NCBI GenBank assembly: GCA_030726915.1
Contig: JANRCR010000016.1
Span: forward strand, 1 to 41,494
DNA length: 41,494 nt
Reading direction: 5' to 3'
DNA from: Candidatus Nanopelagicales bacterium
GTDB lineage: Bacteria; Actinomycetota; Actinomycetes; S36-B12
The stretch's first letter is position 1, and every line of letters starts with the position of its first letter. Under the pieces are notes generated by a model. It saw only the letters and a list, made by a program, of their open reading frames with translations, had not been told where the DNA came from and made no database searches. This document shows, piece after piece, positions 28,052 through 31,505 of the stretch. Position numbers and translations under genes: made by a program.

Positions 28052-28081
28052 CCGAGAATCTCACGATGTCAACGGTTGCTT

Positions 28082-28087
28082 TACGAT
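28082..28087 (+). promoter_or_regulatory. Possible -10 upstream of the metallophosphoesterase
   Basis: TACGAT, seven bases, then GTG 28095, the start of a 47-codon frame that ends in the ATGA of the phosphoesterase start. A promoter here would give the phosphoesterase a leader of about 140 bases. No good -35. Confidence 0.3.
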
Positions 28088-28094
28088 GCCAAGG

Positions 28095-28238
28095 GTGAGA
28101 GTCGTGGTCACCCCATTCGCTGTGCGGCCGCGAACGATTGGAAGGCCTGCGGGAGGCCGATTGTCGTCAAACTTCGTAGGACACCCGCAGAGAGTCGCCC
28201 CCGCGCGCCAGTTTTGCGAGTGGGTCGAAGAGCGATGA
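28095..28238 (+). CDS. Possible 47-residue upstream ORF
   Basis: GTG 28095 to TGA 28236-28238, overlapping the ATG of the phosphoesterase at 28235 in an ATGA. The predicted peptide begins MRVVVTPFAVRP and is Arg-rich with several codons that are rare in the neighbourhood (AGA, AGG). Third-position G+C is near two thirds, lower than in neighbours, so it may be chance. The case for translation is only the -10-like TACGAT seven bases before the GTG and the exact overlap with the next gene. It could be a leader peptide that couples translation, or nothing. Confidence 0.25.
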   Translation: MRVVVTPFAVRPRTIGRPAGGRLSSNFVGHPQRVAPARQFCEWVEER

Positions 28239-29713
28239 CATCGCCTACCCCCGATGAGCGAGTGGTCGTCAAGCCTCCCAACGAGTCGGGATGGTGTGAC
28301 CTGACAGTTGTGTCTAGCCAAGCACCGCCTGCCGTCGATGGCGATGCACTCACCCGGATCTTGCACATCTCCGACACGCATGTGTGTGACGCCGAATCGC
28401 CAGCTCGACTGGAGTATCTGGACCGATTTTCAGATCATGGGTCCACCTATCGACTGCGTCTTGGACGAGTGGGCACCTATCGCCCGCAGGAGATCCTCAC
28501 AGTGCAGGTCCTGACCGCGCTTGTCGAGGCCATTAACGCGCAGGCTGATGACCTGGATGGGGTGATCATCACCGGGGATCTGATCGACAACGCTCAGCAC
28601 AACGAGCAGTCGTGGTGCGCCCAGGTACTAGACGGTGGTCGCATTGAGCCCTGGAGTGGTGACCCTCAGGTGAGTCAATGGGTGGGGTCGCGTGCGGGGT
28701 ACCCCTGGGATGATCGTTATTGGCACCCTGACGGGCCACGGGGAGCCACCGTCCCGGACCTGCCGACATCAGGTTTTGGCTTCCCAATCATCCCCGGTTT
28801 AGTTGAGGCCGCGCGTCGCACCGTGGTGTCACCTGGACTGCGCGTTCCTTGGCACGCGGTGCCCGGCAACCACGATGCACTCCTGCAGGGGACGGTGGCA
28901 CCAGATCCAGAGATTCGCGCGTTGGCCCTGGGAGATCGGCGGGTCGTGGGGCTGCCTCCGCTAGCCACGCCTCTCTTGGCGCTGGAAAGCGTCGCGCCCA
29001 TCGGCCCGGCTCGATACGTCCACGATGTCACGTCCCCGACCGTGGGAGTCACGGCCGATGGACGGCGTCAGATCCTCGGGATCGACGAGTTGACGGCCCC
29101 CTGGGTGCGCGATATTGGCGATGTTCGTTTCATCGCCATGGATACGGTCAATCCCCACGGTGGTTGGCAGGGATCTCTGGGGTCGGCACACTTCGCCTGG
29201 TTACGCGATGTCCTCGAAAGGTCCCGCGACCACTACGTGATCGTGACGTCTCATCATCCCTCCTGGTGTCTCACCAACGGCTTTACCCTTGGCGAGCCCC
29301 GGCACCTGGCTGGTGAGGTCGTGCGCCTGCTACGTGACCAGCCACATGTCATTGCCTGGCTGAGCGGTCACGTACACGCGCATACCTCACTCTGGCATTC
29401 GGGTGAGGACGATTTAGGCTTTTGGGAGATCACTACCGGGTCCCTCATTGACTGGCCCCAGCAGTCGCGTCGGCTCGAGGTGTTCCGCACGGAGGGCCGG
29501 CTTGCCCTGCGCAGCACGCTTGTGGACCACTTCGGTGCCGTGCAATGGGCTGCGGGTTCCCTGGACACGGCAGCAGAACTAGCATCGATCTCGAGAGCGC
29601 TTGCCGCAAACAACTACCACGACAATGCCGAGGTGCGTGGCCTACGCGAGGGCGGCGACGGTGATCGGAATACCGTGTGGTGGATGCCTGACCCACATCT
29701 GCCGACCGGATGA
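28235..29713 (+). CDS. Metallophosphoesterase, TIGR03767-like
   Basis: 492 residues. All calcineurin-type metal motifs are visible: HISDTHVCD, GVIITGDLIDN, AVPGNHDALLQG, VTSHHPSW and WLSGHVHAHTS, spread over about 45-385 as expected for the large insertions of this actinobacterial family. No signal peptide is apparent, so it is probably cytoplasmic. The substrate is unknown. ATG 28235 was chosen because GAAGAG precedes it and the upstream part of the frame has no family-like sequence. It is preceded by a possible 47-codon ORF and converges on the HU gene. Confidence 0.85.
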   Translation: MTSPTPDERVVVKPPNESGWCDLTVVSSQAPPAVDGDALTRILHISDTHVCDAESPARLEYLDRFSDHGSTYRLRLGRVGTYRPQEILTVQVLTALVEAINAQADDLDGVIITGDLIDNAQHNEQSWCAQVLDGGRIEPWSGDPQVSQWVGSRAGYPWDDRYWHPDGPRGATVPDLPTSGFGFPIIPGLVEAARRTVVSPGLRVPWHAVPGNHDALLQGTVAPDPEIRALALGDRRVVGLPPLATPLLALESVAPIGPARYVHDVTSPTVGVTADGRRQILGIDELTAPWVRDIGDVRFIAMDTVNPHGGWQGSLGSAHFAWLRDVLERSRDHYVIVTSHHPSWCLTNGFTLGEPRHLAGEVVRLLRDQPHVIAWLSGHVHAHTSLWHSGEDDLGFWEITTGSLIDWPQQSRRLEVFRTEGRLALRSTLVDHFGAVQWAAGSLDTAAELASISRALAANNYHDNAEVRGLREGGDGDRNTVWWMPDPHLPTG

Positions 29714-29799: not shown

Positions 29800-30093
29800 T
29801 CAGCTTCCAGCGGCCGCGCGCTTCAATCCACTGCTTGCGGTGACCTTCACGGCACGTCGGGCGGGGATCTGCATGGCCTCACCCGTGCTGGGGTTGCGTC
29901 CGCTGCGGGCAGCGCGCTCCACCACATCGACGGTGAAGAGGCCCGGGATCTGCAATTTGGTGCCGTTGGCTACCTGCTCTGTAACGACGCTGGCGAGGGC
30001 GTTGAGTACGCCATCTACCATTCCGGCCGGCAGTCCACTGCGCTCCACCAGAGCATTGCGCAGATCGGACTTTGACCACGTGGCGTTGGACAT
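29800..30093 (-). CDS. HU/IHF family DNA-binding protein
   Basis: 97 residues. N-terminal WSKSDLRNALVERSGLPAG, GVLNALASVVTEQVANGTKLQIPGLFTVDVVERAARSGRNPSTGE with the RNPxTGE tip of the DNA-bending arm, then IPARRAVKVTASSGLK. HU bends DNA and compacts the nucleoid. No long Lys/Ala C-terminal tail, unlike the main actinobacterial HupB, so it is a short-form paralogue. GGAGG lies five bases before the ATG. It diverges from the Cys-rich small-protein gene. Confidence 0.93.
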   Translation of the reverse strand: MSNATWSKSDLRNALVERSGLPAGMVDGVLNALASVVTEQVANGTKLQIPGLFTVDVVERAARSGRNPSTGEAMQIPARRAVKVTASSGLKRAAAGS

Positions 30094-30173
30094 GATTCCT
30101 CCAGGAGTGACGGTGATGAGCGTCTCGCACGATAGTGGTTCCCGCCGACTCCGGCCCCACGACACGCCATTTG

Positions 30174-30189
30174 ATACCCCCTGGGGTAT
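30174..30189. promoter_or_regulatory. G-tract palindrome, CsoR/RcnR-type operator candidate
   Basis: ATACCCC-CT-GGGGTAT is a perfect 7-base inverted repeat. TACCC..GGGTA palindromes with C and G tracts are the typical sites of CsoR/RcnR-family repressors, which sense copper, nickel, sulfide or formaldehyde. It overlaps the -10 of the downstream gene by three bases, the position of a repressor site. No CsoR-family gene lies in the window, so the regulator would be encoded elsewhere. The identity is inferred from the palindrome only. Confidence 0.55.
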
Positions 30190-30192
30190 ACT
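30187..30192 (+). promoter_or_regulatory. Leaderless -10 of the Cys-rich protein gene
   Basis: TATACT, one base from the consensus, seven bases before ATG 30200. It is the best -10 in the window, overlapping the G-tract palindrome. A TTGATA lies upstream but at only ten bases, too short for a -35. Confidence 0.55.
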
Positions 30193-30199
30193 TTCGCAC

Positions 30200-30391
30200 A
30201 TGTGTAGACAGGTGGCGTGCGCAAAGTGCGAGAAGGCATCGTGGGCCGGATGTGGGCAACACGTCAATCAGGTGCTGGCCGGAGTGCCCAAGAATCAGCG
30301 GTGTCGCTGCACCCCGCAGGAGAAAGCGCAGTGGAAAAAGGAGCATTCGTTCTTCCACAGGATCTTCGGCAAGAAGTCATCCAGCGCCTGA
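30200..30391 (+). CDS. 63-residue Cys-rich protein, probable metal binder
   Basis: Six cysteines and a histidine in the first 37 residues: C2, C7 and C10 (CAKC), C18 in WAGCGQHV, H21, C35 and C37 (CRC). The tail is basic and hydrophobic (FFHRIFGKK). I recognise the pattern CRxVxCxxCxKxxWxGCGxHVxxVLxGVP as a small, widespread but functionally uncharacterised family. The cysteine pattern suggests a zinc- or copper-binding rubredoxin-like knuckle. The ATG at 30200 is supported by the -10 TATACT seven bases upstream, and the gene is preceded by a repressor-type palindrome. Read as leaderless. Confidence 0.8.
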   Translation: MCRQVACAKCEKASWAGCGQHVNQVLAGVPKNQRCRCTPQEKAQWKKEHSFFHRIFGKKSSSA

Positions 30392-30413
30392 CGGGCATGA
30401 GACCTGACGGTCA

Positions 30414-31505
30414 TTACTCGAGTGGCACGGTCTCGGTGATCTGCAGGCCGAATCCCTCGAGGGCGTAGCGACGCTCGGGGCTGCCTGTGAGTAAACGCAT
30501 ACTCTGCACACCGAGGTCGGATAAAATCTGAGATCCCAGTCCGTAGTCGAGTGGATCACCGCTTCCGGGGGTGTGTGCTCCGAGCAATGCGGCGCCCCCT
30601 ACGGCTGGCCGCAGATAGAGCAGCACTCCGCGACCGTCTTCAGCGATGCGGGCGAGTGATTCACGCAATCGAACGCCGCATCGGCAGCTGTTGGAGTGCA
30701 GTGCATCGCCGGCCAGGCATTCGACATGGACGCGGACCAGCAGGTCGTGCCCCTCACCGACCTCACCCTTGACCAGTGCGGCGTGCTCGGACCCATCGAC
30801 GAGAGATCGGTATCCCACGACGGTGAAGTCCCCGTGTTCGGTGGGCAGTGGCGTCTCGCCACCGCGCTCGATGAGGCGTTCGTAGCGCCCTCGGTGTCGG
30901 ATGAGATCCGCGATCGACACGAGGGGGAGATCATGGCTATCGGCAAAGGCGCGGCACTGGGCCGCATCCATCATCGTGCCGTCATCATTGACCATCTCGC
31001 ATAGGGCCCCGGAGGGGTGCAGGCCGGCCAACAGGGCTAGATCGACCGCGGCCTCCGTGTGACCCGGTCGCTGCAAGACACCGCCGGGTACGGCGCGCAG
31101 TGGCATCACGTGCCCGGGCCTGGTGAGGTCTGCGGCCGTCGTGCTGGCATCCCCCAGGGCTCGGATGGTGATTGCGCGATCCGTGGCGGAGATCCCGGTT
31201 GACGTCACGGCGCGCGCATCGACAGAAATGGCGTACGCCGTCCCCTTGCGATCTTCATTGACCACGGTCATCGGCGGCAGGTGTAGGCGATCTAGATCCT
31301 CACCGATCATGCCCACGCAGATGTAACCACTCGTGTGCCTGATCATGAAGGTCGTGAGATCACCCGTGGCCTTTTCGGCGGCGAAAATGAGGTCTCCCTC
31401 GTTTTCGCGACCCTCATCATCGACCACGATGACGGCGCGTCCATCGGCCATGGCGGCGATAGCGGTCTCAATCGGATCCATGCGCACGGCCTCGTGGTCT
31501 GACAC
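30414..31505 (-). CDS. ribB: RibBA-type protein with degenerate GTP cyclohydrolase II half
   Basis: 363 residues. The N-terminal 3,4-dihydroxy-2-butanone 4-phosphate synthase domain (about 9-205) looks active: DDEGRENEGDL (29-39), RPGHVMPLRA (129-138), GHTEAAVDLALLAGL and LCEMVNDDG. The C-terminal domain (about 222-363) begins like GTP cyclohydrolase II, keeps zinc cysteines C263, C274 and C276, but after LLYLRP (295-300) lacks the GHEGRGIGL motif, the Tyr-containing helix and the D-x-R segment (DPLDYG here), and it ends without the usual C-terminal tail. About 30 residues are missing. So it probably supplies only the butanone phosphate branch of riboflavin synthesis, like RibBX proteins. The start is set by TAGGGT-N6-GTG. 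Confidence 0.85.
   Translation of the reverse strand: MSDHEAVRMDPIETAIAAMADGRAVIVVDDEGRENEGDLIFAAEKATGDLTTFMIRHTSGYICVGMIGEDLDRLHLPPMTVVNEDRKGTAYAISVDARAVTSTGISATDRAITIRALGDASTTAADLTRPGHVMPLRAVPGGVLQRPGHTEAAVDLALLAGLHPSGALCEMVNDDGTMMDAAQCRAFADSHDLPLVSIADLIRHRGRYERLIERGGETPLPTEHGDFTVVGYRSLVDGSEHAALVKGEVGEGHDLLVRVHVECLAGDALHSNSCRCGVRLRESLARIAEDGRGVLLYLRPAVGGAALLGAHTPGSGDPLDYGLGSQILSDLGVQSMRLLTGSPERRYALEGFGLQITETVPLE

Follow-up and report, generated by a model that had tools for sequence, protein, structure and literature searches.

Which repressor, and which chemical signal, governs a 63-residue cysteine-rich protein encoded behind a perfect palindrome in the window (here, the whole analysed stretch of 41,494 nucleotides from a Candidatus Nanopelagicales bacterium), and what might this protein do? 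The preliminary description of this DNA had placed the gene under a CsoR/RcnR-type repressor responding to copper, nickel, sulfide or an aldehyde. From the analysis reported here, it is likely that the protein, a conserved but unnamed miniprotein of zinc-thiolate type, is part of the regulon with which actinobacteria respond to sulfane-sulfur (persulfide) stress, under a CstR/ScCsoR-type repressor. The operator, its conserved linkage with the gene, the content of the regulon and the type of regulator in congeners, all established by sequence comparison, carry this conclusion.

The miniprotein gene (plus strand; ATG at 30200, stop codon ending at 30391) encodes the 63-aa sequence MCRQVACAKCEKASWAGCGQHVNQVLAGVPKNQRCRCTPQEKAQWKKEHSFFHRIFGKKSSSA and is probably leaderless and monocistronic. 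It lies alone between two minus-strand genes, one of the HU type (PF00216; start codon at 30093) and one at 30414–31505 that we take to be ribBA-like. Elsewhere in the window, positions 28076–29713 encode a protein related to the TIGR03767 metallophosphoesterase family, under the cut-off (288 of 330.75 bits). Because family members were recognized in 48 of 59 relatives (with a profile of seven sequences), and because the seven close copies show 271, 209 and 574 nucleotide differences at codon positions 1, 2 and 3, respectively, the open-reading frame is regarded as a real gene. The six cysteines and one histidine counted earlier within 37 residues are all present (C2, C7, C10, C18, H21, C35 and C37). 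The expectation of a conserved family with no assigned function also held, as neither Pfam nor NCBIfam gave a family above cut-off for the window's protein and two homologues. In a phylum-wide sample of 246 genomes, a profile search detected the family in at least 32, with at most 25 candidates scored per genome. A scan of one genome per species confirmed at least 529 stretches, and the analysis went on with the best 80 loci. The titles of the listed matches are mostly actinobacterial; two name Myxococcota or Myxococcales, and one names Acidobacteria.

Among 71 aligned sequences, M1, C2, C7, C10, K12, W15, G17, C18, G19, H21 and C35 are invariant. The next ligand-like residue after C35, in all 82 distinct homologues, is Cys at +2 (35 sequences), His at +3 (42) or His at +4 (5), and exchange between Cys and His at one position is typical of a metal ligand. 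The AlphaFold model, which is of only moderate confidence (pLDDT 79.7, pTM 0.50), predicts a hairpin (strands 3–6 and 13–16) with C7-x2-C10 in the turn, a helix (19–25) beginning at C18-x2-H21, and a further C-terminal helix. A CxxC hairpin and a helix starting at CxxH are the elements of treble-clef fingers. A PDB fold search with this model gave no match (best Foldseek E-value = 2.5; VIA-align Z always below 2), and PDB sequences gave no significant match to the 71-sequence profile (best E-value = 0.75). The ligand pattern suggests a zinc-thiolate miniprotein, zinc being the presumed metal. In the long forms of the family, the C-terminal helix bears an FF.R.F motif. The window's genome (G000) also contains a second, 38-residue copy without this helix (C6:3486–3611, minus strand), and the operator was not seen in the 300 nt upstream of it; G007 (L119) and G006 (L130) have comparable short copies, which are preceded by the operator.

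The perfect palindrome ATACCCCCTGGGGTAT (ATACCCC-CT-GGGGTAT), which occupies positions 30174–30189, has the 16-nt form ATACC-N6-GGTAT, and this form matches the published sulfane-sulfur CsoR site ATACCn6GGTAT of S. coelicolor (PMC7533328). The overlap with a -10 hexamer that had been noted before is confirmed: the right end of the palindrome supplies the first three bases of TATACT (30187–30192, plus strand). ATACCCCCTGGGGTAT is unique in the window at up to two mismatches (shuffled sequences give 0.03), and a consensus scan of 30050–30480 found no sigma-70 promoter with both hexamers. Only 7 nt separate TATACT from the ATG of the miniprotein gene, a distance compatible with a leaderless transcript. 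Among close relatives, the palindrome merges into TATGCT or TATACT with the ATG about 7 nt further on, a layout that would be expected for leaderless transcription there as well.

A second layout also exists, in which the start codon overlaps the palindrome's right end (GGTATG); the operator covers the start codon in L053, L055, L057, L062, L068, L080, L082, L187 and others. Where such start-overlapping sites have a recognizable regulon product, all 19 cases show ATACCCT as the left arm (rhodanese lipoprotein, six; miniprotein, six; thioredoxin, five; membrane protein and transporter, one each), these having been chosen by eye from 56, with totals that count both orientations and overlapping loci. 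An arm of this sequence places a TANNNT hexamer (TACCCT) 7 nt before the ATG. The T occurs in the left arm of 24 of the 56 start-overlapping ORFs, chance ORFs included, versus 27 of 326 non-overlapping sites (Fisher p = 1 × 10-9). At start-overlapping operators, the left arm ATACCCT apparently serves as the -10 of leaderless genes.

When the regions upstream of homologues were searched for the same palindrome, as the preliminary description had proposed, it was found: of the 83 homologue ORFs in the 80 loci (the best of at least 529, rich in Cryobacterium and Arthrobacter, so that the ORFs are not independent events), 52 have a perfect ATACCC-N4-GGGTAT in the 150 nt before them. Of 3572 control windows, 24 contain one, which predicts 0.56 by chance; such control rates are upper bounds because control windows contain true operators of neighbouring genes. 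Relatives have the palindrome before 21 of 25 ORFs and the phylum sample before 8 of 27 (control windows, 18 of 2902); from each set of 29 loci, those without an ORF under the strict pattern (4 among relatives, 2 in the phylum sample) had been dropped, and one dropped locus, L068, has the operator. Since a perfect operator is absent within 150 nt for 19 of the 27 phylum-sample ORFs, the link between operator and gene is not universal. Many homologues without a near site belong to operon-like arrays with a site (at most one mismatch) further upstream (L159, L165, L167, L180, L183, L204, L207 and L215). At L054, L066 and L050, L064, homologues without the CsoR-type site have other upstream palindromes (ATGTCCGGACAT; TTGTCCGTACAA), which perhaps belong to a different regulator.

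ATACC-N6-GGTAT was found in 68 of the best 80 loci (104 sites; reversed control, 0), and the flanks of these 80, up to 5 kb a side, contain a CsoR-family gene in 32, a rhodanese in 39 and an MBL-rhodanese-like match in 30, as detected by neighbour-gene profile HMMs built from the loci themselves, with gene type resting on Pfam. Since 35 genomes of about 2.4 Mb gave 35 CsoR matches, or about one each, fewer than one of the 80 loci would be expected to have a CsoR gene by chance. On the Arthrobacter plasmid NZ_CP013298.1 (L255), csoR, a miniprotein match, an MBL hydrolase, two rhodaneses and a TauE sulfite exporter stand in a row. The incomplete PLSDB gene table does not list the miniprotein match on this plasmid (about 16229–16345).

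The window's genome (2.2 Mb in 56 contigs, 95.3% complete) contains five exact ATACC-N6-GGTAT sites, and the reversed control none. They precede the miniprotein, a rhodanese (contig C18), a thioredoxin (C22), a protein combining metallo-beta-lactamase and rhodanese (C25) and a lipoprotein-like rhodanese (C28). A site with one mismatch on C6 precedes a membrane-type protein with the motif GCPVCNK. This protein (154 aa; G000 C6:2225–2686, L077:2225–2686) has no match in Pfam or NCBIfam, and its copy in the relative G031 has a perfect operator (L105). In nine relatives, 41 ATACCC-N4-GGGTAT sites were found versus none for the reversed pattern, and thiol or sulfur genes follow 40 of them; the remaining site, near a contig end, is without a target gene. 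The miniprotein is the commonest single target (10 sites), ahead of MBL-rhodanese (7), thioredoxin (7), lipoprotein-type rhodanese (5), AhpD-like protein (3), rhodanese (2) and thioredoxin reductase (2), with one site each for the membrane GCPVCNK protein, a SLAC1/TDT transporter, a peroxiredoxin and csoR; Pfam names in this series come from one example per type, four of them 110-residue fragments. Copper motifs (CopA/CopZ) were found at 0 of the 41 sites, no DsrE or TusA homologue was identified at them, and neither a zinc gene nor a zinc repressor was identified at operator sites.

As to the signal, published work describes two CsoR proteins with different sites: ScCsoR of S. coelicolor senses sulfane sulfur via persulfidation of Cys37 and binds ATACCn6GGTAT (PMC7533328), and the copper CsoR of S. 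lividans has the consensus ATATACCCCTNAGGGGTATAT, with seven bases between ATACC and GGTAT (PMC3902906). The window's operator has N6 spacing, not N7. Among 30 CsoR genes in the window's bacterial family, five encode a Cys-His-Cys protein, the His of which is a copper ligand, and in the other 25 the His is replaced by Gly, Ser, Ala or Glu. The Cys-His-Cys loci (L016–L020) have copper-transport motifs and an N7 palindrome in five of five and N6 in none, which supports the copper role of that His. Of the other loci (L021–L045), a perfect N6 is present at 13 and a perfect N7 at none; when the outer A/T is relaxed, 24 have N6 and one has N7. Judged from these loci, the spacing of the palindrome seems to code the signal, N7 for copper and N6 for the others. 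The copper His is missing from all 35 CsoR-family proteins near homologues (Gly in 21, Ala in 11, Ser in 2 and Thr in 1), and the congener CsoRs are of the C-G-C type in seven of seven and of the Cys-His-Cys type in none. The N6 spacing, together with the His-less CsoRs near homologues, places the miniprotein gene in the sulfane-sulfur class, not in the copper class. Upstream of one homologue (L146), the spacing is N7 instead of N6. The best NCBIfam match of a congener's regulator is RicR, far under the cut-off (43.9 of 175 bits), and similarity to RcnR and FrmR is distant and likewise sub-cut-off. Of the signals first listed, sulfide, as sulfane sulfur, is retained together with a CsoR-type operator conserved with the gene, whereas copper is disfavoured by the spacing, the missing His of nearby regulators and the lack of copper motifs at the 41 sites, and nickel and aldehydes have only the sub-cut-off similarity to RcnR and FrmR in their favour.

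A gene with PF02583 was not found in the window's assembly; such a gene exists in 28 of 35 genomes of the bacterial family and in 7 of 10 other congeners. The congener gene order is presumably photolyase-like gene, DtxR-like regulator, csoR and SDR dehydrogenase. Contig C34 starts inside the photolyase-like gene (match at C34:12–376), C31 starts just before the SDR gene (C31:124–900), and the stretch between them, the place of the DtxR-like gene and csoR in congeners, is missing from the assembly. Because the ends of C34 and C31 flank this very spot, the simplest reading is that csoR lies in the C34–C31 assembly gap. The proposed check for a CsoR-family gene in the genome thus returned none from the assembly, which is explained by the contig gap at the csoR position of the congeners, and the earlier remark that the regulator lies outside the window agrees with the congeners, which keep it elsewhere, at the photolyase-like/SDR locus.

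We propose that a two-cysteine CsoR repressor of the CstR/ScCsoR type, bound to ATACC-N6-GGTAT over the -10, would block transcription. By analogy with ScCsoR, persulfide would modify a repressor cysteine and the repressor would be released, after which the miniprotein would be made together with the persulfide-dioxygenase-like MBL-rhodanese, rhodaneses and thioredoxin. The miniprotein itself may fold round zinc while its cysteines take up sulfane sulfur or pass it to rhodanese, dioxygenase or thioredoxin; we regard this role as plausible, if somewhat short of probable. A bolder form of it, that these cysteine miniproteins, nucleated by zinc, form a new class of sulfane-sulfur carrier and take up persulfide sulfur for delivery to dioxygenase-rhodanese and thioredoxin (as an actinobacterial stand-in for TusA/DsrE), is put forward as speculative.

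The present data do not separate a sulfur carrier from two further putative roles in the same regulon, a zinc reserve and an adaptor finger. In the former, the miniprotein would be produced in response to sulfide or persulfide stress, in which sulfur species strip zinc, and would hold or return zinc instead of moving sulfur. The Cys/His exchange after C35 points to a metal ligand, and sulfide triggers a zinc-limitation response in S. aureus (PMC5480029), but no zinc gene or zinc repressor was identified at the operator sites and one or two zinc per chain at most would fit. We consider such a buffer rather unlikely. The same low probability is given to a zinc finger that would bind protein or nucleic acid and tune the regulon as adaptor or anti-repressor, its cysteines being structural only. 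The modelled CxxC hairpin and helix starting at CxxH resemble treble-clef fingers, W15 and K12 are conserved, and the long forms add the FF.R.F helix; however, the invariance of C2, C7, C10, C18, C35 and H21 in 71 sequences exceeds what one structural zinc needs, and the fold search gave no match to a binding domain.

Explanations outside the sulfane-sulfur regulon fare worse. A copper response, with the miniprotein as a MymT-like metallothionein under a copper CsoR/RicR repressor, would draw on the precedent of MymT, whose copper metallothionein gene is controlled by RicR, a paralogue of CsoR (PMC10470581), on the likeness of the operator half-sites, on RicR as the best, if far sub-cut-off, NCBIfam match and on the N7 operator of L146. 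Against it stand the N7 spacing at all five copper CsoR loci of the same bacterial family, with N6 at none, and the N6 of the window; the absence of the copper His from 35 of 35 nearby CsoRs; and copper motifs at 0 of 41 regulon sites. Operator spacing, regulator type and co-regulated genes thus rule out copper as the main reading and leave it very improbable. It is hardly credible that the palindrome arose by chance or has nothing to do with the gene: a shorter relaxed core with one mismatch does occur at 8 places in the window's own genome versus 10 in the reversed control, but the exact pattern occurs 5 times versus 0 there, 41 versus 0 in relatives and 104 versus 0 in the 80 loci, and its conservation upstream of homologues rules this reading out.

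Membership in the persulfide regulon, the reading preferred here, gives a widespread unnamed family a testable function, and known persulfide regulons gain a component that is the most frequent target in the nine relatives examined. The N6/N7 rule, which comes from one family of genomes and agrees with two published operators, would separate copper from persulfide CsoR regulons by their DNA alone. The type of regulon is already known; in the open-licence literature, the miniprotein as its target, the family's sequence strings and a comparative study of CsoR-rhodanese regulons were not found.

Among known systems, the ScCsoR (SCO0620) circuit of S. coelicolor is alike in its ATACC-N6-GGTAT operator, its two-Cys CsoR repressor and its targets, a persulfide dioxygenase-rhodanese and a rhodanese; its four genes, as described in the excerpt, include no Cys-rich miniprotein, whereas here the miniprotein is the leading target (PMC7533328). 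The copper CsoR of S. lividans shares a G-tract pseudopalindrome with TAC/GTA arms, and differs in having seven bases, not six, between ATACC and GGTAT in ATATACCCCTNAGGGGTATAT (PMC3902906). MymT under RicR is likewise a small Cys-rich protein with a CsoR-family repressor (PMC10470581), but the operator spacing, regulator type and co-regulated genes of the miniprotein point away from copper. The CstR and YrkD persulfide repressors of Firmicutes are also CsoR-family dithiol repressors over dioxygenase and sulfurtransferase genes (PMC5480029, PMC9918477). In the YrkD cluster, homologues of DsrE and TusA are the likely sulfur carriers (PMC9918477), in contrast to the 41 sites here, where neither was identified and the miniprotein participates instead, putatively as a carrier.
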